Origin: a virus
DNA: 41,946 nucleotides
IMG/VR virus record: IMGVR_UViG_3300043015_000867
Span: 1-41,946 of that record
Strand: one strand, 5' to 3'
Under the pieces are notes generated by a model. That model saw nothing but the letters and a program-made list of their open reading frames with translations, did not search any database and had not been told where the DNA came from. The position numbers and the translations under genes were made by a program. Of the stretch, positions 4,460 through 23,180 are shown piece after piece; the first letter of the stretch is position 1; every line of letters begins with the position of its first letter.

Positions 4460-4778
4460 ATCTCTTTCCATCAAATACGCAAACAAAATATAATTCTTCG
4501 TTGCCTGCATGTACACGATGAAACACACCGTCTTCAATCAGTACAGTATCACCTGCTTCAACATTGTGTGTAACATCATCAAGTTCCATAGTTCCATAAC
4601 CTTCTAGAAACATGTAAACTTCTTCTTGTCCTTCATGTTTATGTCCGCTTGTGCTTTTGCGTGGATTTAATCTTGTACTACTAACAACAAGATTTTTTAA
4701 TGTTGTGTTGTCTTTAACAATATAACGATCATCATTTTTTACAACCGTTCCTTCTATACTAGAACTTTTAAACTTCAT
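4452..4778 (-). CDS. single-domain cupin protein
   Basis: This 108-aa protein is essentially one cupin barrel. Motif 1 is GHKHEGQEEVYMFLEGYG (about 45-62), with the His-x-His and Glu that bind metal. Motif 2 is AGDTVLIEDGVFHRVHAG (about 76-93), with the last metal His. A GGAG sequence 7 nt upstream supports the start, and its ATGA overlaps the oxygenase stop. Small cupins of this type include sugar-phosphate isomerases/epimerases and binding proteins; the substrate cannot be read. It lies beside a 2OG oxygenase gene and a second cupin is 1.5 kb away. Confidence 0.75.
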   Translation of the reverse strand: MKFKSSSIEGTVVKNDDRYIVKDNTTLKNLVVSSTRLNPRKSTSGHKHEGQEEVYMFLEGYGTMELDDVTHNVEAGDTVLIEDGVFHRVHAGNEELYFVCVFDGKRYG

Positions 4779-9257: not shown

Positions 9258-10452
9258 TTGCAGAGTCTCCTTTAAATGTATAATGTACCAACAATGGTTT
9301 ATTTGCAAGATACGTTTGTGTTTTGTAATGACTAGGTTCAGTTGCTAAGTCAACTATAACAACATTAGGTGTGATGTTATATTTTACAAAGTTCTTATTG
9401 ATTTTTTCGTTAGTAAGTATAATTTTGCTTTCAGGATCAAACTTATTAACTTTCCTATCTTTAATATAATCGTTCATTTCTTTGTTCTTAGGATATCTAA
9501 ATGCTACCGATGTTTGGTTTGAAAGACCTGCCCATTCTAGCAATTCAATCCATTTAATCAGACTTTCATGCTCTACACTGCTTACCATAATAAGTGTTTG
9601 TTTACTAGGCTTAATAAGTTCCAAGAAATTTTGACGCTCGTGAACTTTTCTATTAACTGTCCAACGTGATTGGTCTCCTAACAATATTTTTCTAAATGTT
9701 TTATGTCCTAGTTTTTTAACCACCGGTGAATCATAAACAGTTACACCAAGCATTTTACTATACAATATTGCCTCAACAGGATCGTCAATATCTTTTAAAG
9801 GTTGCAAGTAATCTGCAGGGATATCTGAATTATTAATTGTAAACTCGTTGTCTTGAATTGTCAACAACGGAAAATATTTTAATCCTTCTTTTTTAACTGT
9901 ATCTGTTTTCTTTTTAATGTCTGTAAGATTTTCGTCAATAGAAAAACCTTTTCCTCTTACAGCATCGAGTAAAAATTCAATATTTTTTTCGTTAAAAGGA
10001 AAACTCCATTCTTTGTTTTCTCCGTTGTATGTACCAGCAAGATACACATGTTTTTTTCTTTTCTTAAACTTATTAACTAGGTCTGCGATGAATGGACTTT
10101 TACAAACAATTTGGTCGCCGTCGATGTGTAACGTTTTTGTTTTATCAATTACCCTAAACGGTCTTGCAAAAACTTTCTTAGTAATTAGTGTTTCAGTATC
10201 AAAACCAATCTTGCGTAGTGCCGGTTCGTATCTTTTAACAACCCGTAGTCCAATTTCTCCTTGCTTTTCAGTAAGTGCAAGATTTCGTTCTAGTTGCATT
10301 GCTAAACTTTTTACAATGTTTAGATCATATTGATTGATTGCAACAGTAGGAAGTTGTTCATTACTAAAGTTATAGGCCCATAGAGTTCCGCCTAAAAACT
10401 GTATTGCGTCATCGATTGTGTTGTTGATTCCTTGAGGTAATTTATTCACCAT
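9244..10452 (-). CDS. hypothetical protein upstream of uvsW, with HARP-like and helicase-like stretches
   Basis: This 402-aa protein has no Walker A or DEAD box. Residues about 115-165 contain SPFIADLVNKFK ... KEWSFPFNEKNIEFLLDA, resembling the HARP motif of annealing helicases such as SMARCAL1 (a short helix, then W-S-F and a Leu-rich helix). The last 120 residues (TLIMVSSVEHESLIKWI ... SKIILTNEKINKNF ... NVVIVDLATEP) have the rhythm of a RecA-like second helicase lobe without its arginine finger motif. It is directly coupled to uvsW and is the first gene behind the sigma70 promoter at 10491-10518. It may be a partner of UvsW; that is inference. Confidence 0.6.
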   Translation of the reverse strand: MVNKLPQGINNTIDDAIQFLGGTLWAYNFSNEQLPTVAINQYDLNIVKSLAMQLERNLALTEKQGEIGLRVVKRYEPALRKIGFDTETLITKKVFARPFRVIDKTKTLHIDGDQIVCKSPFIADLVNKFKKRKKHVYLAGTYNGENKEWSFPFNEKNIEFLLDAVRGKGFSIDENLTDIKKKTDTVKKEGLKYFPLLTIQDNEFTINNSDIPADYLQPLKDIDDPVEAILYSKMLGVTVYDSPVVKKLGHKTFRKILLGDQSRWTVNRKVHERQNFLELIKPSKQTLIMVSSVEHESLIKWIELLEWAGLSNQTSVAFRYPKNKEMNDYIKDRKVNKFDPESKIILTNEKINKNFVKYNITPNVVIVDLATEPSHYKTQTYLANKPLLVHYTFKGDSASGIL

Positions 10453-10490: not shown

Positions 10491-10518
10491 ATTATAGCAG
10501 ATTATACAGTTTTGTCAA
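10491..10518 (-). promoter_or_regulatory. sigma70-type (early) promoter for the uvsW-primase block
   Basis: The minus strand reads TTGACA (10513-10518), a 16-bp spacer, then TATAAT (10491-10496). Both hexamers match the consensus. Predicted +1 is near 10484, giving a leader of about 32 nt to the ATG at 10452. The -35 and spacer lie inside the last codons of the glycan gene 10502-11362, so the replication block has its own host-polymerase promoter. Confidence 0.75.
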
Positions 10519-11362
10519 CCAAAAATTCATTTAATTTTGGCAGTAATCTTGCCAAAGGTAGACCTTCTGCTATTTCATCAACGGTCCATTCTGTATGTGC
10601 GTAATCATTTAACCACTGTTGTCTTTCAGGCTTTATAGGGTCTTCAATAGTATCAAAACTGTGATTAGCAACGTCATATGCTAAACTTGATTGGCCTACA
10701 AATGCAGGAACTCCGCCTATAATACTTTGAATTCCTGGATTACTTGTCCAACTTACAACAGCATGAGCACCTTTAAAACTAAAATCAAAGTCGTCATATG
10801 TTCCTGTAACATGCAATGGTATTTGTCTAAACACATTTTTGAATTCGTGTTCTATTCCAGGTAACTGACATCTTGGGTGTGGCCTAAAGTATATTTTTCT
10901 TTCGGAGTATTTTCTAATTTCATCTATAACGTCTGATATCCATTTGCTCATAGGAGGCATATCACGCCATTGATGACTTTTATCATGTTGTCCACAAATT
11001 ACAATATGTTCTCCAAATGACCACGGCTTTAATTCGAGTCCGAGTCGTCTAGCCCTACTGCTATCATTACTGCTAGGACCAAAAAAAGCATCTCTATTGA
11101 TTCCATTTATTCCTACCTTCCATGTTGTTCCTCTTTTGATTCCGCCTACTTCTAATACTATTACAGGGATATTATTTTTTTGACAATATTCCCACACAGG
11201 CTGATTATTTTTCATACGACCATGCCAGAGCACACTCCAAATAACTGCTACGTCAAAGTCTTCGTGTTCTTCGTGTCCTAGGTGTTTTAATCCTGTGCTA
11301 AATGCATCAAAAACTGCTGTACTGTTTAATGCACCATTCTCTCTGAATAATTTGAACTTCAT
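10502..11362 (-). CDS. RPHP-motif glycan transferase, paralogue D (286 aa)
   Basis: This is one of four related proteins in the window. Shared blocks are HIVICGQ (start of the C-terminal half), W-I-x-x-V-I-D-E-I-R-K-Y-S, KIYFRPHPRC (the RPHP motif), AHAVVSWTSNPGIQSIIGGVPAF, DTIEDP and a C-terminal WTVDEIAEG. Capsule and teichoic-acid transferases of the GT-B kind (KpsS/KpsC and CDP-glycerol glycerophosphotransferases) share the RPHP and the S/N-x-x-x-E-x-x-x-x-G-x-P logic. The donor is unknown. Divergent from the plus-strand cassette, it is separated from it by a 46-bp late-promoter-like region. It is likely part of virion or host surface glycan synthesis. Confidence 0.6.
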   Translation of the reverse strand: MKFKLFRENGALNSTAVFDAFSTGLKHLGHEEHEDFDVAVIWSVLWHGRMKNNQPVWEYCQKNNIPVIVLEVGGIKRGTTWKVGINGINRDAFFGPSSNDSSRARRLGLELKPWSFGEHIVICGQHDKSHQWRDMPPMSKWISDVIDEIRKYSERKIYFRPHPRCQLPGIEHEFKNVFRQIPLHVTGTYDDFDFSFKGAHAVVSWTSNPGIQSIIGGVPAFVGQSSLAYDVANHSFDTIEDPIKPERQQWLNDYAHTEWTVDEIAEGLPLARLLPKLNEFLVDKTV

Positions 11363-11371
11363 CTATTGCCT

Positions 11372-11398
11372 ACTAAATATACGTATATTATATTTATT
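11372..11398. promoter_or_regulatory. divergent late-promoter-like region with a 14-bp palindrome
   Basis: The minus strand carries AATAAATA (11391-11398), 28 nt before the ATG at 11362. The plus strand carries ACTAAATA (11372-11379), a one-mismatch late box, with predicted +1 near 11385 and a GAGG ribosome site before the ATG at 11409. Between them lies the perfect palindrome AATATACGTATATT (11376-11389), which could be an operator or just reflect AT-rich composition. Confidence 0.45.
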
Positions 11399-11408
11399 AG
11401 AGGATAAA

Positions 11409-12224
11409 ATGTCAAGAAAATTTGCGGTTGTTACAACGTTCAATAAAGCAGGCATGGACTTGTACGGACAAAAAATGATAGACAGTTTTGAAAAAAACTG
11501 GCCTGCTGAAGTTGATCTTTATGTATATGCAGAAGGTTGCACACCTAACAAAACTAGAAACAATACATACGTTAGAGAATTGATGCAAAATGCAGGCATT
11601 GTAAAATTTAAAGCAAAGTGGAAAGACGTTCCTAAGGCAAATGGATTAGAAAATCCAAAAGGTAGAGTAGATGCACACAAGGGGTTTAAGTGGGACGCTA
11701 TTAGATTTTGTCATAAAGTTTTTGCTATCTTTGACTGTGCGAAAAGCCTAGACGGCTCAAATGTTGATGAATTAATTTGGATGGATGCTGATACACTGTG
11801 CCATAGTGCAATGCCAAAAGATTTCTTAGACAAATTTATTCCACACAATAGTCATATTTGTTATTTTAGTAGAGAACCTAAATGGCCTGAGTGCGGATTT
11901 TATTCTATGAAACTAAAAGAAGATATTACTAAAAAGTTTTTAAGTAGATTTCAATGGGTATATGATCATGCCGAAGAAGGTATTTTTACAATGAAGGAAT
12001 GGCATGACAGTTTTGTATTCTATGAAATTGTAAAAGAATTTAGACAGGTGCAAGGTTTTGTAGAACATAGTTTAAGTAATGTAACAATACAAGGTGAAGG
12101 ACATCCTATTATCAACAGTAAGTTAGGTGCATATATCGACCATATGAAGGGCAATAGAAAAGTTGATGGAAAGTCATATGCAAAAGATCTTAAAGTAAAA
12201 CGTAAAGAAGATTACTGGAAATGA
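11409..12224 (+). CDS. glycosyltransferase, GT-A fold with DxD (GT8-like)
   Basis: The start is the ATG at 11409, five nt after GAGG; the longer frame from 11295 runs through the promoter region. The protein is 271 aa. It begins FAVVTTFNKAGMDLYG, followed by a K-x-x-x-D-S-F helix typical of nucleotide-sugar binding. The catalytic metal motif is ELIWMDADTLCH (D-x-D, about residue 120), then a region with W-x-E-C-G-F-Y and a C-terminal YIDHMKG. It is a paralogue of the 16891-17625 gene, which shares WLDSD and THYKGK. Donor and acceptor are unknown. First gene of the five-gene plus-strand cassette. Confidence 0.75.
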   Translation: MSRKFAVVTTFNKAGMDLYGQKMIDSFEKNWPAEVDLYVYAEGCTPNKTRNNTYVRELMQNAGIVKFKAKWKDVPKANGLENPKGRVDAHKGFKWDAIRFCHKVFAIFDCAKSLDGSNVDELIWMDADTLCHSAMPKDFLDKFIPHNSHICYFSREPKWPECGFYSMKLKEDITKKFLSRFQWVYDHAEEGIFTMKEWHDSFVFYEIVKEFRQVQGFVEHSLSNVTIQGEGHPIINSKLGAYIDHMKGNRKVDGKSYAKDLKVKRKEDYWK

Positions 12225-12850
12225 AGAAAAGTTTATTTGGCCCGTGGTCTAGTTTACTAGATGTTATGTTCAAAGATGCCGAAAGTGTTTCTATATGTGA
12301 AATAGGAACGCACAGAGCAAAAACAGCAGAACAAATATGCTTACACATATTACAAAATCATAATTGCAAGTTGCGTTATGTAGGTTATGATGCCTTTGAA
12401 TTAGCAACCCCAGATAGTGACAATGACGAAATAAATGGAAAAGGTCCGGGTGATTATATGTATGCTAATCATATGCTTAGACGTATAAACAACAAAAATT
12501 TTAAATTCAAACTAATCAAAGGTTGGACACAAAACACACTAGAACAAGGCAAGTACGATCTAGTTTATATAGATGGCGGTCATAGTTATGAAACTGTAAA
12601 ACATGATCACGAAAAGTTAGAAATGAGCAATATTGTAGTGTTTGATGATTATCAGATACCTGATGTAAAGAGATATGTAGATGAATACATATATAAAAAT
12701 TCTATTGTACAAGTTGATTGGGATTTAGATAAAATAAAAAATCTAAACGAAACTGTATATTCGTTTATGCCACACAAAGTCAAGAAACAAAAACAGTTTG
12801 TTCTTGGACAACCAACAGGACACATACAGCCTGTAATATTTAGGAAGTAA
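12221..12850 (+). CDS. class I SAM-dependent methyltransferase
   Basis: This 209-aa protein has a Rossmann-like methyltransferase order: SICEIGTHRAKTAEQI (motif I, about 23-38), YVGYDAFE (acidic end of strand 2), KLIKGWTQ (strand 3) and YDLVYIDGGHSYETV (motif with Asp-Gly-Gly-His, about 109-123), then VVFDDY. This resembles the small Methyltransf_24/CmcI-like group used on sugars. The start overlaps the previous stop (ATGA). A related protein is encoded at 14416-14994 (VYIDADHSYESV). Its likely role is O-methylation of a glycan; the target is unknown. Confidence 0.75.
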   Translation: MKKSLFGPWSSLLDVMFKDAESVSICEIGTHRAKTAEQICLHILQNHNCKLRYVGYDAFELATPDSDNDEINGKGPGDYMYANHMLRRINNKNFKFKLIKGWTQNTLEQGKYDLVYIDGGHSYETVKHDHEKLEMSNIVVFDDYQIPDVKRYVDEYIYKNSIVQVDWDLDKIKNLNETVYSFMPHKVKKQKQFVLGQPTGHIQPVIFRK

Positions 12851-12851
12851 T

Positions 12852-13721
12852 ATGATTATTGATGCATTTCCATATTTTAATGAAGAAGAACTTTGTTTAA
12901 TTAGATTAAACTATCTTCAAGATGCAGTAGACAAATTTATAATTGTCGAAAGCAATCAAACATGGCGTTGTCGCCCTAACAAACAAAAGTTTTTGAAAGT
13001 TTTAGAAAAAGTTCCACAACACATAACAGATAAAATAGTTTACAAATGGGTAGAACACCCTGACGAGTATTTAGACAGTGAAGAACACACTAACCTTAAA
13101 ACAATACAAAATATTACTAGAGATAACCTAGTATATGAAGCACGTAAAATAACTGACAAAGCAATTTTCTTTTACAGTGACCTAGATGAAATTTGGGATA
13201 AAAGAGGATTGGCAGAAATTAAACGTTTGTTAAAAGCAGGAGAAAAACAAATTGTTTGTGATCAAGATTTAAGAGTTGTATATCTTGATTGGTATGCACG
13301 TATGCGTAATTGGCCTGGTACACGAATTACTAATTTAGAAAATCTACCAGAAGAAAAGCCATTAAGCACAGGTGCGTTCAAATACACTAAAGCAGGTGCT
13401 TTTAAAAGACACACTGTAATTAAAAATGGTTGGCACTTTAGTTACTTTGGCAGTGATAATCAACGTACTGAAAAAATTGCAAACATTAAAAATGCAATGG
13501 ATTGGGAACGCAAAGCAGGAATGAGTTATGCACAAATTGCCACAAGAGTAAAAACAATACAAGAGTGGAATAACGTTGTACGTAAAAAGAAAATTCAAGG
13601 CAGACAACTAGATGATAATTTACAAATAGATACAAGTTTACAAAAAGAGTTTTTAAAATTTGATCTACTAAGTCCTTGGTTTAAAAACAAATATGAATCA
13701 CATTTAAGGAGTACAAAATGA
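12852..13721 (+). CDS. GT17-like N-acetylglucosaminyltransferase-family glycosyltransferase
   Basis: This 289-aa protein starts with DAFPYFNEEELCLIRL (about 4-19) and continues VDKFIIVESNQTW. It has the acidic metal site FFYSDLDEIWD (about 108-118), WYARMRNWPGTR, and the C-terminal GWHFSYFG. These are the blocks of family GT17 (bacterial and viral relatives of beta-1,4-mannosyl-glycoprotein GlcNAc transferase). The gene begins one base after the preceding TAA. The sugar and acceptor cannot be read, but a surface or virion glycan is the likely product. The third gene in the plus-strand cassette, coupled at its end to the FkbM gene by ATGA. Confidence 0.8.
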   Translation: MIIDAFPYFNEEELCLIRLNYLQDAVDKFIIVESNQTWRCRPNKQKFLKVLEKVPQHITDKIVYKWVEHPDEYLDSEEHTNLKTIQNITRDNLVYEARKITDKAIFFYSDLDEIWDKRGLAEIKRLLKAGEKQIVCDQDLRVVYLDWYARMRNWPGTRITNLENLPEEKPLSTGAFKYTKAGAFKRHTVIKNGWHFSYFGSDNQRTEKIANIKNAMDWERKAGMSYAQIATRVKTIQEWNNVVRKKKIQGRQLDDNLQIDTSLQKEFLKFDLLSPWFKNKYESHLRSTK

Positions 13722-14419
13722 AAAAGTCCGGCGATTGGTGGATATGTGACGAAGAACAAAATATGATGAAGTATACTGAGGTTGCTAAAAGGGGCGATCC
13801 TAGTTGGCAAGGTAACTTTCCTTTATATTTAAATAAGTTTGTACCAGAAGATAAAAGAGGTGTATTTGTTGACATTGGTGCTAATTATGGATTTATGGTA
13901 ACTGCTATGAGTAAGTTCTATAATCGTGTAGAAGCGTTTGAAGTAATTCCAAAAACATTTGACTGTTTAAAATTAAACTGTGAAGGGTTTGATAATGTTG
14001 TATTACACGATTGTGGACTAGGTAAATCAAACGATAAGATGTATGCAAAGCGTAGAAAGAAAACAGCAGGGCATAGTCAAATTATAAATGATCAACAACA
14101 GTTAGATTTATATCTGTCAGGCAAACACCCTAAACAACATATGGTAGAAATTGTAGAAATACCTATTAAAACATTAGATAGTTTTAATTACGATAGAATA
14201 GATTTAATGAAAATTGATGTTGAAGGTTTTGAAGAGTTTGTACTTGCAGGTGCAGAAAAAACCATTAAAAGATGTAAGCCTGTAATTGCACTTGAAGTTA
14301 CACGTGAAAAGAAAACTACTGTAAAACGTAGTAGTATTGATACTGTAAAATTAGTTGAAAGTTGGGGATATAAATTTGTGGAGCAACGTAAAGACGATTA
14401 TATGTTGATTCCTCAATGA
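13718..14419 (+). CDS. FkbM-family methyltransferase
   Basis: This 233-aa protein shows FkbM features: VFVDIGANYGFMVTAMSKF (SAM motif I, about 48-66), VEAFEVIPKTFDCLKLNC (acidic residue after strand 2), an ILDSF-like TLDSF, and the family hallmark MKIDVEGFEEFVLAGAE (about 168-184). FkbM enzymes methylate hydroxyls of sugars and polyketides. It is coupled to both neighbours by ATGA overlaps. A second FkbM gene lies at 21231-21890 on the other strand with the same KIDVEG core, so both arms of the cluster have one. Confidence 0.85.
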   Translation: MKKSGDWWICDEEQNMMKYTEVAKRGDPSWQGNFPLYLNKFVPEDKRGVFVDIGANYGFMVTAMSKFYNRVEAFEVIPKTFDCLKLNCEGFDNVVLHDCGLGKSNDKMYAKRRKKTAGHSQIINDQQQLDLYLSGKHPKQHMVEIVEIPIKTLDSFNYDRIDLMKIDVEGFEEFVLAGAEKTIKRCKPVIALEVTREKKTTVKRSSIDTVKLVESWGYKFVEQRKDDYMLIPQ

Positions 14420-14994
14420 AACACTTTTACCAAGATATTTTAGGGTACACTTATCCACAAAATTTAATTTTCTTTGATATGGTTATTCCTAAACTGCCTA
14501 ATAATAGCACATGGGTAGAGTTAGGATCGTGGACTGGAAAAAGTACGGCGTATTGTGTTGTAGAATTATACAATGCAAATAAGTTAGGAAAGTTTGTTTG
14601 TGTAGATACATGGGAAGGTAGTCCCATACATTTTACAAGAGATACATTGCCCCATGGCTTAGATAATATCGACGATTTATATACTACATTTTTAAAAAAC
14701 ACTAATCCTATAAAAGACAGAATTACACCAATAAAATCTTTAAGTTGGGAAGTGGCTGATCAGTTTGAAGACGAAAGTGTAGATTTTGTTTATATTGATG
14801 CTGATCATAGTTATGAAAGTGTTACTAAAGATCTAATAGCATGGTGGCCTAAAGTTAAAACAGGAAGTTACTTCGGAGGGGACGATTTTACGAAAGGTCA
14901 TCCCGATGTAATACGTGCTACACGAGATTTCTTTAAAGATTTAAAAAGGAAAGTTAGAAAAAAAGGCAGGTGCTGGTACGTTCAAAAAGTTTAA
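14416..14994 (+). CDS. class I SAM-dependent methyltransferase (Methyltransf_24-like)
   Basis: This 192-aa protein contains TWVELGSWTGKSTAYCV (SAM motif I, about 31-47), KFVCVDTWEGSP (strand 2), ITPIKSLSWEVADQF and FVYIDADHSYESVTKDL (about 129-145), then a GDD loop and C-terminal KKGRCWYVQK. It is related to the 12221-12850 protein. As the last gene of the plus-strand cassette, it ends in TAA overlapping the stop of the convergent gene (14991). No terminator is visible between the two converging operons, so antisense transcription is likely. Probably a glycan methyltransferase. Confidence 0.75.
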   Translation: MKHFYQDILGYTYPQNLIFFDMVIPKLPNNSTWVELGSWTGKSTAYCVVELYNANKLGKFVCVDTWEGSPIHFTRDTLPHGLDNIDDLYTTFLKNTNPIKDRITPIKSLSWEVADQFEDESVDFVYIDADHSYESVTKDLIAWWPKVKTGSYFGGDDFTKGHPDVIRATRDFFKDLKRKVRKKGRCWYVQKV

Positions 14995-15917
14995 ACGTAT
15001 TTTCTCATATGGCGCCAACACGTACCATTTTTAAGTTCATCAATACTCCAATGGCTGGCACACAACTTCCATAACCATTCTTTTCTATCAGGACGTTGTG
15101 GAGTTTCAATTTGTGTTAAGTCAATATTAGCAAGAGGGCCTGCTTGACAATCATCTGGATCTGTGGCAAATATAGGAATACCGTTCATTAGTGCCGCAAC
15201 ACTTGGACTTGAATTTTTAACAATCATCGCCCAACAATTTTGTAAGTCATCTAACAGTGTTATTTTAGTAGTATCGCTAACACGAACACCAAATTCTTGT
15301 TCTATTTGTTTGCCGTAGTGTAATGCTGTTTTATCTCCTGGGTGACAACGTATCTTGATAGGTCTATTTGTGTGTTTACGCAATGTTGTTAAGGTATTAC
15401 GTAACCAATCAATAACATGTTCCCCCTTCATGCTCCACCCACCGTTTCTTTGTAGACAGATAAGAACATGGTCGCCGCTGTTTGTATACGGAAGTAATTG
15501 TAGTCCATATCTATTTGCTAATCTGTCCCAGTGCTCTGGAGTAGTAATATCGTGATTACAATAATCTCCTGTTGTAGGAAATACACCATCAAAACTAAAG
15601 CGTATTAATTCACTGTCGTTAAATTTGCCTGTTGCGTAACTAAACATATTACTATCAATAATAACACAGCGTTTAGGTTTTACTGTATTTCTTTGATGTA
15701 CTAGACGCCTAAATTGCAAGTGAGGTGCATTTTTTCCATGTTCATGAACGAAACCTTGCAGTACAGCAACATCACATTCTTGATATGTTGTACCTTCTAT
15801 TGCAACACCTTCGTCACCGGCGGCAGTTACTCCTTGCACATAAGCATGTAACATTGCAGGCTTAGCCGGGTTATTGTTGCGTGGAGGAATACCTCCTAAA
15901 AAACTTACTACTTTCAT
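14991..15917 (-). CDS. RPHP-type glycan transferase, paralogue C (308 aa)
   Basis: It shares the four-member family blocks: GDHVLICLQRNGGWS, W-L-R-N-T-L-T-T-L-R-K-H-T, PIKIRCHPGDK (RCHP instead of RPHP), NCWAMIVKNSSPSVAALMNGIPIFA, a late TQIETPQRPDRKEWLW and SIDELKNGTCW. The N-terminal 100 residues differ from the other members and are rich in His. The Arg-x-His-Pro motif matches GT-B capsule-type transferases. It starts inside the stop of the pyruvyl transferase gene (TAATG) and follows the same transcript. The substrate is unknown. Confidence 0.6.
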   Translation of the reverse strand: MKVVSFLGGIPPRNNNPAKPAMLHAYVQGVTAAGDEGVAIEGTTYQECDVAVLQGFVHEHGKNAPHLQFRRLVHQRNTVKPKRCVIIDSNMFSYATGKFNDSELIRFSFDGVFPTTGDYCNHDITTPEHWDRLANRYGLQLLPYTNSGDHVLICLQRNGGWSMKGEHVIDWLRNTLTTLRKHTNRPIKIRCHPGDKTALHYGKQIEQEFGVRVSDTTKITLLDDLQNCWAMIVKNSSPSVAALMNGIPIFATDPDDCQAGPLANIDLTQIETPQRPDRKEWLWKLCASHWSIDELKNGTCWRHMRKYV

Positions 15918-16870
15918 TAAAGAACTGCCTTGACTTTAGTCCAAAAATCTTTTGTGGCGTTTCTTGCTTCTTCTAATGCGTTAGGGTATATCGGTGCTTC
16001 GTCTAAAGCATCTAGCCAACCTGCGGGTTTACCTAACAAATAAGGTTTGTGTTTTAATGAATAAAATTTTGAACTCCAAGGTCCTAACACAATTACTTTT
16101 TTACCTAAAAGTGTACCCCAGTATGCACCATGATAACTGTTAGTTAAAATTGTATTAGCACTACCTAGTAATTCAATTGTTTGCTCCATATTGGAACCAC
16201 TATTGATAAATCTTGGAACAGGTGTTGGTCCAAAATCGTTACCTTTAATTAATTGTTTTTTGTGTTCAAAAACAATAATATCGTTCTTAACCGGATATTT
16301 TTTGTCAAATGCTGGATGCATACAACTTGCACAAGGAACCCAATCCCAATCAGGATGTTGTGCTTGAAATAGTTCGCCCCAATAATCGCGAACTCCAATG
16401 AGATCAAAATCTTTCATGCGTCTTGGGTATTTTATATTGTGTGAATTTGCAGAATTGTAGTCTCTTTGGTTGTGTCCTGCTCCCCAAATAACTCTTTTAA
16501 CTTCTTTATTTTCTTCTATTTGTCTAATTATATTAACAACATCTTCTTTTAATCTTTTATTAAATTCTGCATATAATTCTTTATATTTTGGATTACACAA
16601 TCTCCAACGATGATCCCACATTTCATTTAATTGGTTAACATCTGGACGATCAAAAACCATGTTTATAGCATCGCCAAAAAATTCGTTGGCTAATAAACCA
16701 CCACCACCATAAATTACAGGAATATCATCTGGAAAAGGGTGCCTACCAATTTGTGTGATATCTACTTTTTCATATTCGCTGTCTTTTAAAAAATATTGTA
16801 ATGGATCACTAGCCATATCTCCAATATTATTTGCGTCTCTTCTGTGAATTACTACTGCTTTTATTGACAT
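15917..16870 (-). CDS. polysaccharide pyruvyl transferase (CsaB/WcaK-like)
   Basis: This 317-aa protein has family landmarks in order: RDANNIGDMASDPL (N-terminal NxGD, about 12-25), PVIYGGGGLLANEFF (about 51-65), VIWGAGHNQRDYN, DLIGVRDYWGELF (VRD, about 155-167), and SANTILTNSYHGAYWGTLLGKKVI, which contains the NSYHG active-site region (about 232-255). These enzymes add ketal-linked pyruvate from phosphoenolpyruvate to sugars of surface polysaccharides. A good ribosome site, AAAGGAT, precedes the start. It points strongly to acidic or pyruvylated glycan synthesis by the cluster. Confidence 0.85.
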   Translation of the reverse strand: MSIKAVVIHRRDANNIGDMASDPLQYFLKDSEYEKVDITQIGRHPFPDDIPVIYGGGGLLANEFFGDAINMVFDRPDVNQLNEMWDHRWRLCNPKYKELYAEFNKRLKEDVVNIIRQIEENKEVKRVIWGAGHNQRDYNSANSHNIKYPRRMKDFDLIGVRDYWGELFQAQHPDWDWVPCASCMHPAFDKKYPVKNDIIVFEHKKQLIKGNDFGPTPVPRFINSGSNMEQTIELLGSANTILTNSYHGAYWGTLLGKKVIVLGPWSSKFYSLKHKPYLLGKPAGWLDALDEAPIYPNALEEARNATKDFWTKVKAVL

Positions 16871-16890
16871 GTATTATCCTTTATTTTTAA

Positions 16891-17625
16891 TTATGTGCGA
16901 ACCTCAAAGGTATCACTTTTCTTGACTTTACCTTTATAGTGTGTCATGTATTCTGCAAGAACGGTGTGCTTAAAAATTGTGTTATGTTTCCTATTACCCA
17001 AATCATTGAAGATATTTCCGTGTTTTTGGAACTCATTTACCACTGCCCCAAACACATCTCCGTCATAAAACCTTCTAAGTTCTGCACCATAACCTCTAAC
17101 GTAGTATTCACGATAGCGATTAACAAAATCTTCAAAATAATAATGTCTAGTGTTTGTAATATAAAACCCTGTTTCACCACAAAGTACAGGTTTTATTTTT
17201 TGAAACCCTTCACCTTTGGTTTTTTTATGGTCATAAACAACAGCCATGTAGGTTGCAAGAAAGTGTCCAGGAGCAAGATTACATAAAAAGTCATAAGGTA
17301 CAGGTTTAAATGTAATTACATCGCTATCTAGCCATATGACTCGATCCACACCCTGAAACTGACAGGCACGTAACCAACTAAATGCTTTATAACTGAAAAT
17401 TTTCACTCTCTTTTTGTAGTCTGTTTCTTGAAAATCTCTAAAATCTTGATCAAGTTCATCAAAACTGTGATACATTACATTGTCGTGATTATCTAATGTA
17501 AAATCTTCAGCAAAAACATGAAGTGTAATTTCTTTTGGCCAATATTTTACAAAACTGTCGATGCAATTTTTTCCTAATTTGTCGTAATAGGCTTTATTCT
17601 GTGTTGTTACTGCTATAAATTTCAA
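16891..17625 (-). CDS. glycosyltransferase, GT-A fold with DxD (GT8-like), paralogue of 11409-12224
   Basis: This 244-aa protein begins FIAVTTQNKAYYDKLGKNCIDSF and has VIWLDSDVITFKPVP (D-x-D near residue 101) and a CGETGFYI acceptor-site strand, ending in EYMTHYKGKVKKS. The start appears to be TTG (17623-17625), overlapping the previous stop (TTGA), with AGGA a few bases before it. It is a paralogue of the first plus-strand gene, so both arms of the cluster contain this type. Donor and acceptor are unknown. Confidence 0.75.
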   Translation of the reverse strand: MKFIAVTTQNKAYYDKLGKNCIDSFVKYWPKEITLHVFAEDFTLDNHDNVMYHSFDELDQDFRDFQETDYKKRVKIFSYKAFSWLRACQFQGVDRVIWLDSDVITFKPVPYDFLCNLAPGHFLATYMAVVYDHKKTKGEGFQKIKPVLCGETGFYITNTRHYYFEDFVNRYREYYVRGYGAELRRFYDGDVFGAVVNEFQKHGNIFNDLGNRKHNTIFKHTVLAEYMTHYKGKVKKSDTFEVRT

Positions 17626-18413
17626 AATCCTAATATCCTTTTTGCAGTACCGTCCTTCAATTCGTCAATATGAAATTGCCCATAGGCTAAATGACATGCC
17701 CATTCATATACTTCGTCTTGATCAGGGTACCTTGGTTGTTCAATTTGTGTCAAATCATCAGATGCCAATTCCATAGCGGCATTTGGAGCCAGTGTAAATA
17801 CTGGTATACCGTATAATATGGCTTCAGTTGCCGCAATGCTTTGTAGTGTTACCACAGCAAACGCATTATCTAGTTCTTGGTAGATTGTTTTTTCAATTCT
17901 TTCTTGTCTTTTGGCTTTTTCTCTAATTACAATAGGTCGATCGGTATGCTTTTTGATCATTTCTACTGTTTCTCGACGCCATTTTACCATATCAATGTTA
18001 TAAAACCTTGCAGGCTTTTCACTTGGCATTACTACAAGAATATTTCTACCATCTCTCTTCCACGTAGGAATGCTAATGCCTAATTTTTCAAGTCTGTCCG
18101 AAGGTCTTTGTTCGACAATATCGTGTTGTAGGTCGTTTTTTACAATTCTATGAAATAATTTAAATCCGTTTGGGTTAATTGGACTTTTATAGTTACCTAT
18201 ATAACCACTATCCATGTAATAGAAGTCTCTTTGTTCTGCCCAACACTGTTGCATTAACTTGAATTTTAAAATTCCACGTAAAAAGATAGGTCCTGATGTT
18301 TCATTAAAATTAAATTGATCAGAATGTGTTGGGGCAACACCAAAACTCTTGGCGAGCATGTTAATATATTCGTCGGAAGCGTTTTTACTTAGGAATGTTA
18401 AATTGTTTTCCAT
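17622..18413 (-). CDS. RPHP-family glycan transferase, paralogue B with degenerate motif (263 aa)
   Basis: It shows the family frame: RNILVVMPSE, W-R-R-E-T-V-E-M-I-K-K-H-T, PIVIREKAKRQE, NAFAVVTLQSIAATEAILYGIPVFTL, TQIEQPRYPDQ and HIDELKDGTAKRIL. Where the other members have R-P/C-H, this one has IREKAK, so the His and Pro of the motif are missing; it may be inactive or use other residues. It is the shortest of the four. The start at 18413 overlaps the preceding gene by 16 bases. Confidence 0.55.
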   Translation of the reverse strand: MENNLTFLSKNASDEYINMLAKSFGVAPTHSDQFNFNETSGPIFLRGILKFKLMQQCWAEQRDFYYMDSGYIGNYKSPINPNGFKLFHRIVKNDLQHDIVEQRPSDRLEKLGISIPTWKRDGRNILVVMPSEKPARFYNIDMVKWRRETVEMIKKHTDRPIVIREKAKRQERIEKTIYQELDNAFAVVTLQSIAATEAILYGIPVFTLAPNAAMELASDDLTQIEQPRYPDQDEVYEWACHLAYGQFHIDELKDGTAKRILGF

Positions 18414-19090
18414 TGTTGACCTGTTTTGTTTGCAGTTTCAATCCACAAATCAGCATAGTCTACATCTTGACAGTTTGCAAACCACGGTCCACCTTCGGTA
18501 AAGTGAATTGCTTTTGGTTTTCCGTCTTGTGGTTCCTTGTACCAACCTTCTAACCAGTTCCACTCATGGCTGATTTGACCAATTTCTTTGTCTTTTAGCC
18601 AACTAAAGCGGTGCATGAACTTTCCAGTTTCTTTGTTTACCATGCTAGGTATAACTTGTTGGTTACTAGGATGTCCACAATTCCATAATACCATTGAACT
18701 CCAGTTTTTTCTTGGATAAAGTGTCTGCTGTTTGCCGTCCATTTTGACACCTTCTTTGGGAGTATAGTCATGATGCACACACATTACTGCATATTTGTCA
18801 TCACGTTGTGATAATAACTTATCAACATCGTCTAACCATAAAAAATCACAATCACAAAACAATGCCCAACCTTTATAATCCATTAGATAAGGAATTAAAA
18901 ATCTTGTAAATGTAAATTCAGTGCTACTAAGCGAATCATGTGGCCTTGTGTATATGCCTTTGTCACGAAGTTCGTTAATTTTTAAATATTTTATGTCAAT
19001 AGGTTCTTCAGTTGTGTGACGTAAACTGTATTCACAAACATCACTTGCAATTGGTTCACGGGAGTCATACCCAATAAAAATAGTGTTCAT
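18398..19090 (-). CDS. glycosyltransferase with DxD (GT8/GT-A-like)
   Basis: This 230-aa protein begins NTIFIGYDSREP, a typical opening for a GT-A family that includes LPS and polysaccharide glycosyltransferases. YSLRHTTEEPI follows, then the metal motif ALFCDCDFLWLDDV (about 76-89, D-x-D), a WSSMVLWNCGH acceptor-side strand, and the C-terminal AIHFTEGGPWF, which reads like the conserved H-x-x-G-G-P-W end of this group. It begins immediately after the TAA of the cytidylyltransferase gene with a purine-rich GAAGGAAAA site. Substrates are unknown. Confidence 0.75.
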   Translation of the reverse strand: MNTIFIGYDSREPIASDVCEYSLRHTTEEPIDIKYLKINELRDKGIYTRPHDSLSSTEFTFTRFLIPYLMDYKGWALFCDCDFLWLDDVDKLLSQRDDKYAVMCVHHDYTPKEGVKMDGKQQTLYPRKNWSSMVLWNCGHPSNQQVIPSMVNKETGKFMHRFSWLKDKEIGQISHEWNWLEGWYKEPQDGKPKAIHFTEGGPWFANCQDVDYADLWIETANKTGQQWKTI

Positions 19091-19884
19091 TATTTTCCTT
19101 CTTTCCCGTAATTTTCATCAACGCCAACACGCTGTATGTCATCTTCAATACAATTATCACCAAATTGTATTTCAATAATTCTTAACGGTTTGTTAGTTTT
19201 GTTTTCTAGTTGGTGCCATTCACCTACATCTATATTTAAACTTTGGAATTTACTAAGTGTTGCCCACTCGTCTAAATCTGTACTACGATCTATAGTGTTT
19301 ACCGTGGCAGTGCCTTCACTTACAAACCATAGTTCATTTCTGTGTTTGTGTTTTTGCATACTCAACCGTTTACCTGGGTCAACTGTAAGTTCTTTTAACT
19401 TAACTTCATTGCCAACACCAAATAAAACTCTATAATAACCCCAAGGACGTTCAGTTTTAGGATATTTGTATTCTTCTAGTATCCAACTGCTTGAATTCTT
19501 TTTATCTTCACCACCTACACCAAACTTAAATGTTAATCTAGGATGAAATACTTCCATTTCTGGAATATTTTCTTTTGTTCTGTCACCGCCGTTAGCAAAT
19601 ATGTAATCTTCTTGTGGCCATTTAGACATAGTTTGTCTAATTGCATCTGATGCTGTGTTATCACTGTCATCGAACGCAATAACTTCGTCTACTACTGCTA
19701 ATTCTTTAACTATTGCTACACGTTCCTCATAAGGCATAAACGGTTTGCCTTTTTTACGTGTTAACCACTCATCAGAATTGACTCCAACAACCAAATAATC
19801 GCCTAATTCTTTAGCGGCTTTAAAGTAGGCAATGTGCCCTGAGTGTAAGGGATCAAACCCTCCAGTTACTATTACAACTTTCAT
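19090..19884 (-). CDS. HIGH-type cytidylyltransferase fused to a mannose-6-phosphate-isomerase-like cupin
   Basis: Residues 1-140 form a cytidylyltransferase: VTGGFDPLHSGHIAYFK (HSGH, about 5-21), VVGVNSDEWL, then a KNSSSWIL signature near 130. This is the RfaE/TagD/glycerol-3-phosphate type that activates a sugar or alcohol phosphate with CTP. Residues about 145-264 form a cupin with ERPWGYYRVL, PGKRLSMQKHKHRNELWFVSEG (metal H-x-H and E) and WHQLEN, the pattern of type II mannose-6-phosphate isomerase. The fusion couples activation with a sugar-isomerase-like domain. A late-type box 5 nt upstream may give its own leaderless transcript. Confidence 0.8.
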   Translation of the reverse strand: MKVVIVTGGFDPLHSGHIAYFKAAKELGDYLVVGVNSDEWLTRKKGKPFMPYEERVAIVKELAVVDEVIAFDDSDNTASDAIRQTMSKWPQEDYIFANGGDRTKENIPEMEVFHPRLTFKFGVGGEDKKNSSSWILEEYKYPKTERPWGYYRVLFGVGNEVKLKELTVDPGKRLSMQKHKHRNELWFVSEGTATVNTIDRSTDLDEWATLSKFQSLNIDVGEWHQLENKTNKPLRIIEIQFGDNCIEDDIQRVGVDENYGKEGK

Positions 19885-19889
19885 GTTAA

Positions 19890-19897
19890 TATTTATT
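19890..19897 (-). promoter_or_regulatory. late-type box AATAAATA, 5 nt before ATG 19884
   Basis: The minus strand reads AATAAATA then TTAAC then ATG. With T4 late geometry the +1 falls on the start codon. The box overlaps the stop codon of the preceding gene (AAATAA), so it could be partly coincidental. No Shine-Dalgarno sequence precedes this ATG. Confidence 0.5.
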
Positions 19898-20336
19898 TGT
19901 AGCAGTCTGCCAGTATGTATTTGTTGATTTTTGCTATTTTTACTGTTGAAAAGTGTTTATTCAATAAAGTAAAAAGTGTATTTTCATTATATACTTGTTT
20001 CCACCCACGAGATGTCTTTGGCGCCTTAATTGCTAAAGCCATAAAGATAAATCTGCTACAAGTTGGTTGTATAGTTTTTAAAAATTTATCTGGATCATCT
20101 AAATACTCAAGGACTCCTAATACAAGTCCTACTTCTGCTGTATGTTTGATTGTAAATTCTTCGTTAAAATCAATTTGATAATCTGCTAAAGGGTTTAAGT
20201 CATATCCTACATAATCTTTAAAAGATAGATAGTTGCAAACAGATTTATCTCCGCAACCAAAATCTAAAACTGTTTTATTTTCTATATTGTAATCTTTTAA
20301 GAAACGATTTCTTTCACTCCACACGGGTTCAGTCAA
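19893..20336 (-). CDS. small class I SAM-dependent methyltransferase
   Basis: This 147-aa protein has KTVLDFGCGDKSVCNYL (SAM motif I, about 18-34), then a short YVGYDLNPLADY and VGLVLGVLEYLDDPDKFLK, the D/E-x-L-x-x-x pattern of class I methyltransferases. It is short and has a weak C-terminal part. Translation probably starts at TTG (20334-20336): AAAGGAG is 7 nt upstream and the ATG-less start overlaps the previous stop by 8 bases. It may act on a glycan intermediate or nucleotide sugar. Confidence 0.7.
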   Translation of the reverse strand: MTEPVWSERNRFLKDYNIENKTVLDFGCGDKSVCNYLSFKDYVGYDLNPLADYQIDFNEEFTIKHTAEVGLVLGVLEYLDDPDKFLKTIQPTCSRFIFMALAIKAPKTSRGWKQVYNENTLFTLLNKHFSTVKIAKINKYILADCYK

Positions 20337-21234
20337 AGTAAACTCCTTTTAAATGTTCCCATGCTGTACCATTGGATATTTCTTCTTTAGTCCATAGCAT
20401 ATATCCAGCATCATAGCACCATTGTGTTCTATCAATATTAACATTAGGGTTTTCAATATTTTCTAATTTGTTTTGATTGCTAATATTCCAAACGACACTT
20501 TCATCACTTAACGGAAATGTAGGAATTCCTTCTAGTGTACTCTCAACTAATGCGTTAGTGTTGTACCCAACAACCGCCCAAGCATTATTAAAATCTTCCT
20601 CTAATGATTTGCCACCTTCTATCTTGTTTCTGTTTTTGAACACTGATGATATTTCTACATTATCTATAGTTGATTTAAATTGTAAGAAGTTTAGTTTCTT
20701 ATGATGTACGTGAGGTCTAATTATTATTTTTCTGTCTGTATATTTTCTAATTGTTTCAATAGTGTATCTAATCCAGTGTTCATAAGTACCATATTTTTCG
20801 TATAAAGAATTAAGTGTGCTGTCACCGGGTTTTTGTAAACACACAAGAATGTTGTCACCAGGTGAACTCCAATCTTTAATTTCTAAATTTTGTAAATCTT
20901 TAATTGTATTCCATCTATCTGCAGGACTATTCTCATTATTAAAATTGCCATTACGCAAAAAATGATTCCAACCTAACCTAAAATAACAACGAGAATCTGT
21001 AATAGGAAAACTGTTTTTTCTAAACAAATTACTTTCGCATACTAGTGTAGGTTTATTTTGTTCTTTAATATATTGATATGATTTTACATTTTTTGTTTTG
21101 CTTTTTTGTACATTAATTTGAAAAAACACATCAGCAGTTTCTTTTAACGAATTATCGTAATCTATTAGGTGCCAATTTGGTAAGTTGAACCCAATGTTAA
21201 AATAATTAATTTCTTTAAAAGATACAATATTCAT
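20329..21234 (-). CDS. RPHP-type glycan transferase, paralogue A (301 aa)
   Basis: It carries the family blocks: GDNILVCLQKPGDS, HWIRYTIETIRKYTDRKI, IIRPHVHHKK (RPH motif), FNNAWAVVGYNTNALVESTLEGIPTFP, LENIENPNVNIDR and a C-terminal WTKEEISNGTAWEHL. The N-terminal 110 residues are specific to this member and contain many aromatic residues. It overlaps the FkbM gene by ATGA at its start and the next methyltransferase by 8 bases at its end. A transferase for a capsule-like or teichoic-type surface polymer is the best guess. Confidence 0.6.
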   Translation of the reverse strand: MNIVSFKEINYFNIGFNLPNWHLIDYDNSLKETADVFFQINVQKSKTKNVKSYQYIKEQNKPTLVCESNLFRKNSFPITDSRCYFRLGWNHFLRNGNFNNENSPADRWNTIKDLQNLEIKDWSSPGDNILVCLQKPGDSTLNSLYEKYGTYEHWIRYTIETIRKYTDRKIIIRPHVHHKKLNFLQFKSTIDNVEISSVFKNRNKIEGGKSLEEDFNNAWAVVGYNTNALVESTLEGIPTFPLSDESVVWNISNQNKLENIENPNVNIDRTQWCYDAGYMLWTKEEISNGTAWEHLKGVYFD

Positions 21235-21890
21235 TTTATTGCTAAAAAGTTGCTCTCGTATACCGTATCTAGAATGCGTTCTTTTTGTGTAATATTAGAA
21301 AATACATCTCTCGGTATTTTATCTAGTGTAATAATACTGTGTATTGTAAAGTTATTTTCTGTAAAAAAGTCATACAAATCATTAGCAGTATAGTTGTACT
21401 CTTGAAAATGTATTTGATTACATTCAAAATAAACTAGACTAGTTTTTTGTAAAGTTTTTACTGCGCCTTGTAGTGCAGGAAGTTCTGCACCTTCTACATC
21501 TATCTTAATAAAGTAAGGATCGATGTTATAACTATCAACGGTTTTACTTTGTAGTGTTAGTTCGTTGTAATTTTCTAATCTATAATGTTTTCTTAATCCA
21601 CTCCACCCTGCACGATCAAGATCTTGATAAAATGTTACACTACCTGGTTCATTAGATACCACATCATTGTATACAAATACATTATTATCTTTTCTATAAC
21701 GACGTTTTAGTCTATTAAAATGATCCGGCAACGCTTCAATACAATGAAATTCTGCATCAGGAAAATATGTTACATAAGGAACCAACCATTTACCTGTGCG
21801 TGATCCTATATCAATCATAGTCATGTCTGTAGGTGCATGAGTTGTAATATAATCGTATATTAATTTTGTATCTTGTTTTTTAAAGTTCAT
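21231..21890 (-). CDS. FkbM-family methyltransferase
   Basis: This 219-aa protein has TMIDIGSRTGKWLVPYV (SAM motif I, about 23-39), a clear strand 2 (EFHCIEALPDHFNRLKRR), a SKTVDSY block and the family signature FIKIDVEGAELPALQGAV (about 132-149), then YFECNQIHFQ. It probably methylates a hydroxyl on a surface sugar. Its start overlaps the previous stop (ATGA), and it sits between the GT25-like gene and paralogue A. It is the minus-strand counterpart of the FkbM gene at 13718-14419. Confidence 0.85.
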   Translation of the reverse strand: MNFKKQDTKLIYDYITTHAPTDMTMIDIGSRTGKWLVPYVTYFPDAEFHCIEALPDHFNRLKRRYRKDNNVFVYNDVVSNEPGSVTFYQDLDRAGWSGLRKHYRLENYNELTLQSKTVDSYNIDPYFIKIDVEGAELPALQGAVKTLQKTSLVYFECNQIHFQEYNYTANDLYDFFTENNFTIHSIITLDKIPRDVFSNITQKERILDTVYESNFLAIK

Positions 21891-22477
21891 ACAAATAATT
21901 TTCTTCTATAATATTTTACATCAAACAGTATACTGTTAAACATTACTCTAGGAATTATCCAACCGTATTTTCTAACCACTTCAAGTGCTTTTTTGCAACC
22001 TAAAGGTGTAATAAGATACGCATCTGCATTCTTTAAACAGTTGTTTTCAAAGTAAGGATAATCATCTCCGCCTATATTGTAATTGGGTTTAGGTAAAGAT
22101 TGTATTGAGTTTTCGTACTCCCATTCACCGGCACTTAAATTTAAAACTTCAGTATAAAAGTCATTTACATTGCCTGGAATAGGCCATTGTTGCCAACAGC
22201 AGTCTTCAATTATTAGGGTTGGTTTATCAGATTCAGCACCCAGTCGCCATGCTTTTAGATGATCATAAAATGTTAAAAAATGACCATTTTCTCTATGGTT
22301 ACTGTTTCTATAATTTTTATATTTTCCGAAAGTTGCTGGAGGTATTTTGTTTACTTGATCGATTGTTCGAATACCTGTAATAGATCTATTGTTATAACCT
22401 AGTTCAACACAACGGTCATAACACTCTTGGTAATTGTTTTGATTGGTTTTTATTATTATAACATCAAAGTGATGCAT
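21887..22477 (-). CDS. GT25-like (LPS-type) glycosyltransferase
   Basis: This 196-aa protein shows the family pattern: IIIKTNQNNYQECYDRC at the start, GHFLTFYDHLKAWRLG (counterpart of the GxxGCxLSHxxxW block, about 65-80), TLIIEDCCW (where GT25 usually has L-E-D-D; here the second acidic residue is Cys), and ADAYLITPLGCKKALEV (about 151-167). The loss of one acidic residue could change metal use. Its first 14 bases overlap the end of uvsY, making it the point where the glycan cluster joins the recombination operon. Confidence 0.7.
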   Translation of the reverse strand: MHHFDVIIIKTNQNNYQECYDRCVELGYNNRSITGIRTIDQVNKIPPATFGKYKNYRNSNHRENGHFLTFYDHLKAWRLGAESDKPTLIIEDCCWQQWPIPGNVNDFYTEVLNLSAGEWEYENSIQSLPKPNYNIGGDDYPYFENNCLKNADAYLITPLGCKKALEVVRKYGWIIPRVMFNSILFDVKYYRRKLFV

Positions 22478-22922
22478 CTTCCATTCCTGCTACACGTAAT
22501 TTAGTAATATTAGTTATCTGCCATTGCTTCATGTCGATGCCTTTTAAGATTCCTAACCACTTGTTACGTAGCAGTGCAAACTCGTTGATAATTTTTTCCA
22601 TATCAACTACGTCTGCTTCGCCGTCAACATATTTTTCAACATCGCGACTGCTTAATGCTCTTTGATAGTTTTCTAAGTATTGCTTAAAATATTTACTTCT
22701 TGTTCTGCGTAGTTCGATGTTTAGGTATTCGAGGATTGCTTCAATTTCTTGTAGTTGTCCAAAACGTTTTTCTACAACACCAGGCAAACTAGAGGCGTTC
22801 TTTTCAAGATTGCCTTTCAAAGCACACTCTATCCTAGCATCTTCCATTTGTCCCTCATACCATAGTATAGCATCAGGAATGCAAGAAATATCAGTTGAAA
22901 TCCTCGAATACCAATTTATCAT
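22464..22922 (-). CDS. uvsY: UvsY-like recombination mediator
   Basis: UvsY loads UvsX onto ssDNA coated with gp32. This 152-aa protein is almost entirely helical and charged, with an ELRRTRSKYFKQYLENYQ segment (about 73-90), the SSRDVEKYVDGEADVVDM loop, and LRNKWLGILKGIDMKQWQI toward the C-terminus. The length is near that of T4 UvsY (137 aa). The identification rests on this pattern and on its place next to uvsX and the small acidic gene. Its stop overlaps the GT25 gene start. Confidence 0.75.
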   Translation of the reverse strand: MINWYSRISTDISCIPDAILWYEGQMEDARIECALKGNLEKNASSLPGVVEKRFGQLQEIEAILEYLNIELRRTRSKYFKQYLENYQRALSSRDVEKYVDGEADVVDMEKIINEFALLRNKWLGILKGIDMKQWQITNITKLRVAGMEDASL

Positions 22923-23180
22923 TTAATAATCTTCCGAATCATATTCATCATAGTCTTCATCATAATCATTATCGTATACCTCTTCGTCGCCATATACTTC
23001 TGTTACAGCGTCTTTGAGATAAGGATCCTGATCTGCTAACTGATATAACATCGGTTCTTCTAGACCATTGTCTACACACCAGTTTATAAACTTGTTAGCA
23101 CAATCTTGTTTGCTTTTAACATCGACAAATTCAGCAAACGAATCCCAAAGGTCAATTAATTGTTCGTCACTTAGATTCAA
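22923..23180 (-). CDS. small acidic protein between uvsX and uvsY (85 aa)
   Basis: The start is most likely TTG at 23178-23180: AGGAG lies 7 nt upstream within the end of uvsX, and the protein then begins with LNLSDEQLIDLWDSFAEF. Longer starts at 23216 or 23252 would sit deep inside uvsX without a ribosome site. The core (KSKQDCANKFINWCVDNGLEE, without its last letters) is recalled from marine T4-like phages; the C-terminus is a run of Asp, Glu and Tyr from about residue 60. Function unknown; a DNA mimic or regulator of the recombinase is only a guess from the acidic tail. Confidence 0.7.
   Translation of the reverse strand: MNLSDEQLIDLWDSFAEFVDVKSKQDCANKFINWCVDNGLEEPMLYQLADQDPYLKDAVTEVYGDEEVYDNDYDEDYDEYDSEDY

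Follow-up and report, generated by a model that had tools for sequence, protein, structure and literature searches.

A conserved glycan-synthesis island with late-type promoter motifs between uvsY and uvsW of a probable marine jumbo-type phage

Introduction

Glycan clusters are already known from marine phages: cyanophage P-SSM2 carries 24 lipopolysaccharide (LPS) genes in two clusters (PMC2984593, PMC3037559), and pelagimyophages carry GT8-type transferases, mostly in their host-recognition region (PMC7029224). Here we describe an island of 16 genes that lies between uvsY and uvsW of a virus record 41,946 bases long (IMG/VR IMGVR_UViG_3300043015_000867; this whole stretch is referred to as the window), whose product may decorate virion proteins. 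Its core consists of CTcupin (a nucleotidyltransferase-cupin fusion), the transferases GT8b and GT_A, and GA1, GA2 and GA3, members of a family of four paralogs. New are the locus, the core, the GA family and the apparent late control.

Like the LPS clusters of P-SSM2, S-SSM7 and S-SM2, the island is a large assembly of nucleotide-sugar and transferase genes carried by a T4-type, probably marine phage, whereas those clusters adjoin hli03 or phoH and not uvsY-uvsW; S-SSM7 shares the cytidylyltransferase domain, with no GT8b, GA2 or GT_A match found in it. GT8-type transferases are also shared with the pelagimyophages. In Pelagibacter phage Mosig EXVC030M two GA genes, GT8b, GT_A and FkbM genes are contiguous, as in the island, but this set adjoins ribonucleotide-reductase genes and gave no cytidylyltransferase-cupin match. 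Caulobacter jumbo phages (CcrColossus and relatives) likewise have adjacent GA and GT8b genes; in CcrColossus, however, the pair stands between a 5-kb tail gene upstream and the lysis genes downstream, and the conserved core island was not found.

Results

A conserved core at a fixed site

Sixteen intact open reading frames (ORFs) occupy positions 10502-22477, between uvsY and the uvsW block (Table 1), in agreement with an earlier inspection of the DNA without database searches (the sequence-only reading), which had counted at least 16 genes there. Nearly all are sugar-transfer, pyruvyl-transfer, methyl-transfer or nucleotide-sugar genes, with family matches to FkbM (two genes), Methyltransf_24 (two), Methyltransf_23, GT17, PS_pyruv_trans and a cytidylyltransferase joined to a ManC-type cupin. 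These Pfam matches bear out the earlier GT17-like, pyruvyl transferase, FkbM and cytidylyltransferase-cupin calls, and the 'GT25-like' label given to 21887-22477 had no Pfam, PHROG or NCBIfam match behind it; PHROG assigned no function to that gene, the GA genes, GT_A or GT8a. Neighbouring ORFs of the same orientation mostly overlap, by 4-16 bp, but the island is not a single operon coupled to uvsY. Starting at uvsY, ten genes are read leftward, from 22477 to 14991 (21887-22477, FkbM, GA4, a small methyltransferase, CTcupin, GT8b, GA3, GT8a, pyruvyl transferase, GA2). Another five (GT_A, Methyltransf_24, GT17, FkbM, Methyltransf_24) are read rightward, from 11409 to 14994, so that the two sets converge. 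The sixteenth, GA1 (10502-11362), is again read leftward, out of a divergent region of 46 bp. Neither the strand changes nor the four GA paralogs featured in the sequence-only reading.

For comparison, 80 uvsX and 80 uvsW relatives were fetched, plus whole uvsY-uvsW stretches from larger records; ORFs were called in these loci and families were assigned via iterated profiles. Most relatives are partial contigs and the loci overlap in origin, and all counts refer to deduplicated sequences, not independent events. The 19 distinct uvsY-uvsW gene orders point to a fixed insertion site. The core (CTcupin, GT8b, GA3/GA2/GA1, GT_A) was present in 17 of these 19 intervals in conserved order, with GT_A often on the opposite strand, and the individual core families each occurred in 15-17. 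One interval (L074) held other cargo with CTcupin, and another (L124) had no island, the end of uvsY lying 2 bp from X402, the gene that flanks the island on the uvsW side. At least three core families were found in 23 of the 29 loci reaching at least 7 kb beyond uvsY; relatives without the core were L038, L039, L065, L074 and L124.

Distances of core genes correlated with uvsX distance at r 0.44-0.68, and those of gp32 and uvsY at 0.62; because the core tracks uvsX about as these two genes do, it has been mostly inherited with the locus. The earlier suggestion of a swappable cassette is borne out in part, by the empty site and by accessory transferases and methyltransferases that vary between loci, but not by the core, which is retained. 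Core genes had median pairwise dN/dS values (the ratio of nonsynonymous to synonymous substitution rates; simple counting method, pairs with dS 0.1-2) of 0.08-0.13, which match those of uvsX, gp32, uvsW and TerL and indicate strong purifying selection. The family content supports the glycan pathway that had been proposed for this phage, and the presence of the core in 17 of 19 relatives with dN/dS of about 0.1 argues against a chance assembly. Two contigs from cellular metagenome-assembled genomes (L235, Euryarchaeota; L280, Pelagibacter) carry uvsW or uvsX/uvsY with island genes and are apparently phage contigs binned into cellular genomes.

Late-type promoter motifs precede core genes

Late promoters have been described as NATAAATA in cyanophage S-PM2 and as TATAAATA in T4 (PMC2984593). 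Scanning the whole window for TATAAATA with one mismatch gave 98 matches where 120 were expected, which is no excess over chance, and the exact eight-base motif alone was patchy; only position-specific counts were informative, and the pattern was resolved by the geometry TAAATA-N5-start. TAAATA was found 4-6 nt ahead of the start codon in 31 of 40 CTcupin genes, compared to a shuffled expectation of 0.8% and to 17 of 790 unassigned genes. The same spacing was seen for tube2 (8/8), vs13484 (16/23) and TerL (12/21), while other structural genes of this phage group have TAAATA 15-45 nt ahead of the start, an interval in which it was also found for GA1 (15/46; 5.4% expected) and GT_A (12/42; 5.6% expected). 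It preceded no start of uvsY (0/67), uvsX (0/72), uvsW (0/61) or primase (0/36). With one CTcupin sequence per 70%-identity group the motif was present in 16 of 22, and the upstream neighbours of these genes were highly varied. In the window, the late-type motif precedes CTcupin, GA1 and, by direct reading, GT_A. The four accessory genes next to uvsY (19893-22477) have no such motif and are the only ones that read-through from uvsY alone could explain.

These counts suggest that the core is expressed late in infection, from T4-type late promoters. The sequence-only reading had argued from the coupling to uvsY to early or middle expression and from there to a change of the host surface. For the core this argument is not supported: motifs at 31 of 40 CTcupin starts, like those of structural genes, and at none of 200 uvsX, uvsY and uvsW starts contradict early or middle expression.

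Where TAAATA stands 5 nt ahead of the start codon (in the window at 19884, 28447, 30053, 34814 and 40798, and in relatives), genes largely have no Shine-Dalgarno sequence. Its share was 5% for CTcupin, 4% for vs13484, 12% for tube2 and 23% for TerL, compared to 92% for uvsX and gp32, and the tube gene, with TAAATA 22 nt upstream, had one in four of four cases. Such genes possibly give rise to leaderless late mRNAs; a literature search found no paper on point for leaderless late transcripts in T4-like phages.

The GA family and its relation to Kdo transferases

GA1-GA4, which share 21-26% identity, are the largest component of the island. They had no Pfam match and no informative PHROG family; for the family as a whole Pfam gave scattered weak matches (DUF6716, Capsule_synth, DUF354), and the 310 ORFs matched by the GA profile in the fetched loci showed no assignment at the Pfam gathering level. 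A 109-member GA profile compared to the PDB had WbbB as its sole match (E=0.0014). GA2, the only paralog modelled, gave a confident structure (predicted local distance difference test, pLDDT, 95.3; predicted template modelling score, pTM, 0.92), and 18 of its 20 best PDB matches by E-value (foldseek) were WbbB, KpsC or KrkA. With template modelling (TM) scores of 0.37-0.60 and about 10-14% identity to structures of transferases for 3-deoxy-D-manno-oct-2-ulosonic acid (Kdo), the model places GA2 in the fold class of the retaining beta-Kdo transferases as a distant member.

Published Kdo transferases have their nucleophile in QxxxD and bind cytidine monophosphate (CMP) at (K/R)xHP (PMC12887879, PMC9587256). 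With respect to the latter motif of WbbB (GT99), KpsC (GT107) and KrkA (GT140), the best structural matches of GA2, the GA family is divided: R190 was present in 109 of 109 GA members, and HP in GA2 (26/26), GA1 (35/35) and GA4 (13/16), though not in GA3 (0/32), which also lacks the His, and the GA4 of the window reads RPHV. An RxHP-type motif is therefore seen in GA1, GA2 and most GA4 proteins. Unlike in these enzymes, the catalytic Asp is lost in GA1 (1/35 retained), GA2 (0/26) and GA3 (0/32), while GA4 keeps it in 14 of 16. The GA1 and GA2 subfamilies therefore retain Q and HP without D, and GA3 only the Arg and a Ser. Because QxxxD is kept in GA4 and its D is lost in GA1 and GA2, a retaining mechanism of the Kdo type may apply to GA4, and GA1 and GA2 may be something else. 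All 109 members also have an acid at position 88, which presumably resembles the acid of inverting sialyltransferases.

Structure matches to GA2 in BFVD included CcrColossus and several proteins of the alga-infecting Tetraselmis virus 1; GA-like proteins of the latter are A0A2P0VNK4, A0A2P0VP54, A0A2P0VP74 and A0A2P0VP72. 2-Keto sugar acids are constituents of Tetraselmis walls (PMC10762512), which agrees with the suggested GA donor type and does not prove it. A search for CMP-Kdo synthetase (PF02348) covered 16 long relatives and three cultured phages, though not the window itself; only one relative and phage S-SCSM2R were positive, so that phage-made CMP-Kdo is not general. A bolder proposal, which we consider improbable, is that GA1-GA4 are new cytidine-sugar transferase families common to marine phages and alphaproteobacteria and, judged by structure, to Tetraselmis virus 1. 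The phages would use them late to give their own virions a coat of Kdo-like sugar acids in imitation of the host surface glycan.

GT8b, GT_A and CTcupin

GT8b is the best-conserved core protein, with D80/D82 (DxD) and H196xxxG200 invariant. Its model (pLDDT 91) adopts a GT-A fold in which the DxD and the C-terminal His are present, and the top PDB matches were WbbM, LgtC, GlyE and UGGT; it shares fold and DxD with LgtC, GlyE and WbbM but differs at 12-17% identity. GT8b scored 17.0 bits against PF01501 (GT8), below the gathering score of 24.3, and GT8a was also below the cut-off, so the GT8-like calls fall short in Pfam, but for GT8b the modelled fold is like that of LgtC and WbbM. GT8b is fused to a GA domain (GT8b-GA3) in six records, which suggests that the two act one after the other. 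Iterated profiles place GT_A and GT8a in a single family whose members share DxD and, C-terminally, His-x-Lys; the GT_A profile had no match among solved structures. In CTcupin, H14-x-G-H17 (HxGH) and the cupin residues Q177/H179/E184/H224 were at least 95% conserved in 43 relatives.

A scan of a genome collection found GT8b mainly in Rhizobiales and other Alphaproteobacteria, mostly without an adjacent GA gene. L212 and L231, two loci on the chromosomes of single marine alphaproteobacterial cells of low GC content (28.8%), carry GT8b, GA, a tetratricopeptide repeat (TPR) protein, GT_A and GA, and L212 also carries a polysaccharide lyase gene.

Source phage and neighbouring genes

The record encodes UvsX, UvsY, UvsW, a gp32-like protein, TerL, a tail tube and a long tail sheath. 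The sheath (35545-38892; 1115 aa) is far longer than the T4 type; such sheaths also occur in Atu_ph07 and PA5oct-like jumbo phages, and its closest cultured relatives are those of jumbo phages Atu_ph07, Phosso and PA5oct. A 25-kb megablast query had a single weak match among phages, and a close cultured relative was not found. Among the IMG/VR relatives of the record are 203-kb and 185-kb sequences, so the source is likely a large T4-superfamily myovirus. It is probably marine and of jumbo type.

X402 (9244-10452), of about 400 aa and with no Pfam or PHROG match, lies beside uvsW in nearly all relatives, the empty locus included. Because it stays between uvsY and uvsW there, it belongs with uvsW and is likely a replication or recombination partner. 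An 804-aa protein (26033-28447) is virion structural by PHROG and has a weak Sigma70 region 3 match, and a 109-aa acidic ORF (22923-23252) overlaps the end of uvsX and is conserved beside uvsY in close relatives. Two genes are 2OG-Fe(II) oxygenase-like (4775-5371 and 25392-26000), the second adjoining gp32 and carrying a late-type motif; protein hydroxylation ahead of glycosylation is conceivable.

Table 1 Features of the island and its flanks in the window.
Feature	Coordinates	Strand	Evidence
uvsY recombination mediator, left flank of insertion site	22464..22922	-	PHROG_231 (UvsY) E=2.1e-16
Putative glycosyltransferase ('GT25-like'), accessory, overlaps uvsY	21887..22477	-	no Pfam/PHROG/NCBIfam match; 40-member family in relatives (iterated profile)
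FkbM-type methyltransferase b, accessory	21231..21890	-	PF05050 E=9.3e-14; TIGR01444
GA4, Kdo-transferase-like paralog	20329..21234	-	QxxxD kept; RPHV replaces RxHP
Small methyltransferase, accessory	19893..20336	-	PF13489 E=1.2e-7; listed TTG start uncertain
Late-promoter-like AATAAATA, 5 nt ahead of CTcupin start	19890..19897	-	same geometry in 31/40 relatives
CTcupin, HldE/TagD-like nucleotidyltransferase + ManC-type cupin fusion, first core gene	19090..19884	-	PF01467 E=2.7e-17, PF01050 E=1.4e-24
GT8b, GT-A-fold transferase (GT8/GT24-like), core	18398..19090	-	DxD + HxxxG motifs; model pLDDT 91
GA3, divergent GA paralog, core	17622..18413	-	R190, S236 kept; Q156, H192 lost
GT8a, GT_A-family transferase, accessory	16891..17625	-	PF01501 E=0.005, below cut-off; listed TTG start uncertain
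Polysaccharide pyruvyl transferase, accessory	15917..16870	-	PF04230 E=2.8e-7
GA2, Kdo-transferase-like, core	14991..15917	-	model pLDDT 95.3; foldseek top matches WbbB/KpsC/KrkA
Methyltransferase (Methyltransf_24), accessory	14416..14994	+	PF13578 E=5.3e-21
FkbM-type methyltransferase a, accessory	13718..14419	+	PF05050 E=8.2e-18
GT17-like transferase, accessory	12852..13721	+	PF04724 E=8.6e-11
Methyltransferase (Methyltransf_24), accessory	12221..12850	+	PF13578 E=8.1e-8
GT_A, DxD-type transferase, core, GT8a family	11409..12224	+	D126, D128, H245, K247 invariant in 43 relatives
Late-promoter-like AATAAATA, 28 nt ahead of GA1 start	11391..11398	-	sequence; motif counts in relatives
Late-promoter-like TAAATA, 29 nt ahead of GT_A start	11374..11379	+	sequence
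GA1, Kdo-transferase-like, core	10502..11362	-	GA paralogy
X402, conserved uvsW partner, right flank, outside island	9244..10452	-	between uvsY and uvsW in empty locus L124
uvsW helicase	7803..9308	-	PHROG_16 E=4.3e-76; listed TTG start probably over-extended

Discussion

We tentatively favour a late-expressed glycan-synthesis island at the fixed uvsY / X402-uvsW site, with decoration of virion proteins as the leading candidate for the use of its product, because of the late-type control and because the GA-GT8b pair of CcrColossus lies in a tail-to-lysis block. Late in infection, soluble transferases would assemble a short, probably acidic glycan in the cytoplasm, with GT8-like enzymes adding hexoses, GA enzymes adding sugars from cytidine-activated donors (CMP-Kdo-like and mostly host-made, or the CTcupin product), and methyl and pyruvyl groups capping the chain. 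During particle making the glycan would decorate capsid, tail or fibres, which may alter adsorption or protect the particle. As to the target, we infer that virion proteins are more likely than the host envelope, a choice tilted by the late timing of the core.

Several points weigh against this interpretation. The glycan product and its target are deduced from genes, and the promoter call is motif evidence, not transcripts; the motif is absent from 6 of 22 CTcupin representatives, and the motif and selection results come from related phages, with phylogenetic non-independence only partly controlled. In addition, the GT8, Kdo-transferase-like, HldE-like and pyruvyl transferase families are typical of LPS or capsule, core-LPS enzymes are likewise cytoplasmic, and late timing is compatible with a late envelope change.

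The one serious competitor, which we consider less likely, is host-envelope modification, in which the lipid A-core or O-chain would be extended or capped in the cytoplasm and exported by the host, blocking rival phages or the sticking of progeny to debris. Besides the LPS-typical enzyme families, it draws on the same proposal for pelagimyophage GT8 genes (PMC7029224) and cyanophage LPS genes (PMC9602691), on the GT8b-GA-GT_A-GA set found beside a polysaccharide-lyase gene on chromosomes of the two alphaproteobacterial single cells, and on S-SCSM2R, which has GT8b near KdsA/KdsB. None of the 16 island proteins has a clear membrane segment (no 19-residue stretch with mean hydropathy above 1.51), and by this measure and the family scans no flippase, polymerase or ligase is apparent in the island, although host export could serve. 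The late-type promoters on the core also speak against an envelope role; in model T4 phages, exclusion genes are expressed early.

DNA hypermodification, in which the transferases would glycosylate modified bases of phage DNA, is far less probable. The island sits among replication genes and DNA-modifying transferases are known in other phages, but late timing and fold matches to polysaccharide enzymes are against it. T4-style DNA glucosylation, a form of the DNA glycosylation suggested earlier, is disfavoured because a thymidylate-synthase-type hydroxymethylase (PF00303) was found in none of eight long relatives, some of them partial, where the control matched 9 of 14; the window itself was not searched, its ORFs being only partly covered by family scans. 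Tet/JBP gave no match in a search that gave no control match either. Finally, neutral 'stuffer' cargo from hosts carried without function, as raised for cyanophage LPS clusters (PMC3037559), is hardly credible despite the relatives without the core and the turnover of accessory genes, because of the purifying selection (dN/dS about 0.1), seen along with intact ORFs and conserved core order and promoter motifs.

The labels given so far to marine phage glycan genes, 'LPS genes' or 'stuffer DNA', were applied without a test. Taken together, a fixed locus, a conserved core, strong purifying selection and promoters of late type argue for an island that functions, and does so during particle making, and virion decoration thereby becomes directly testable. 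The analysis also exposes a widespread transferase family that appears to be fold kin of the double-displacement Kdo transferases, with paralogs in which the nucleophile has been kept or lost.

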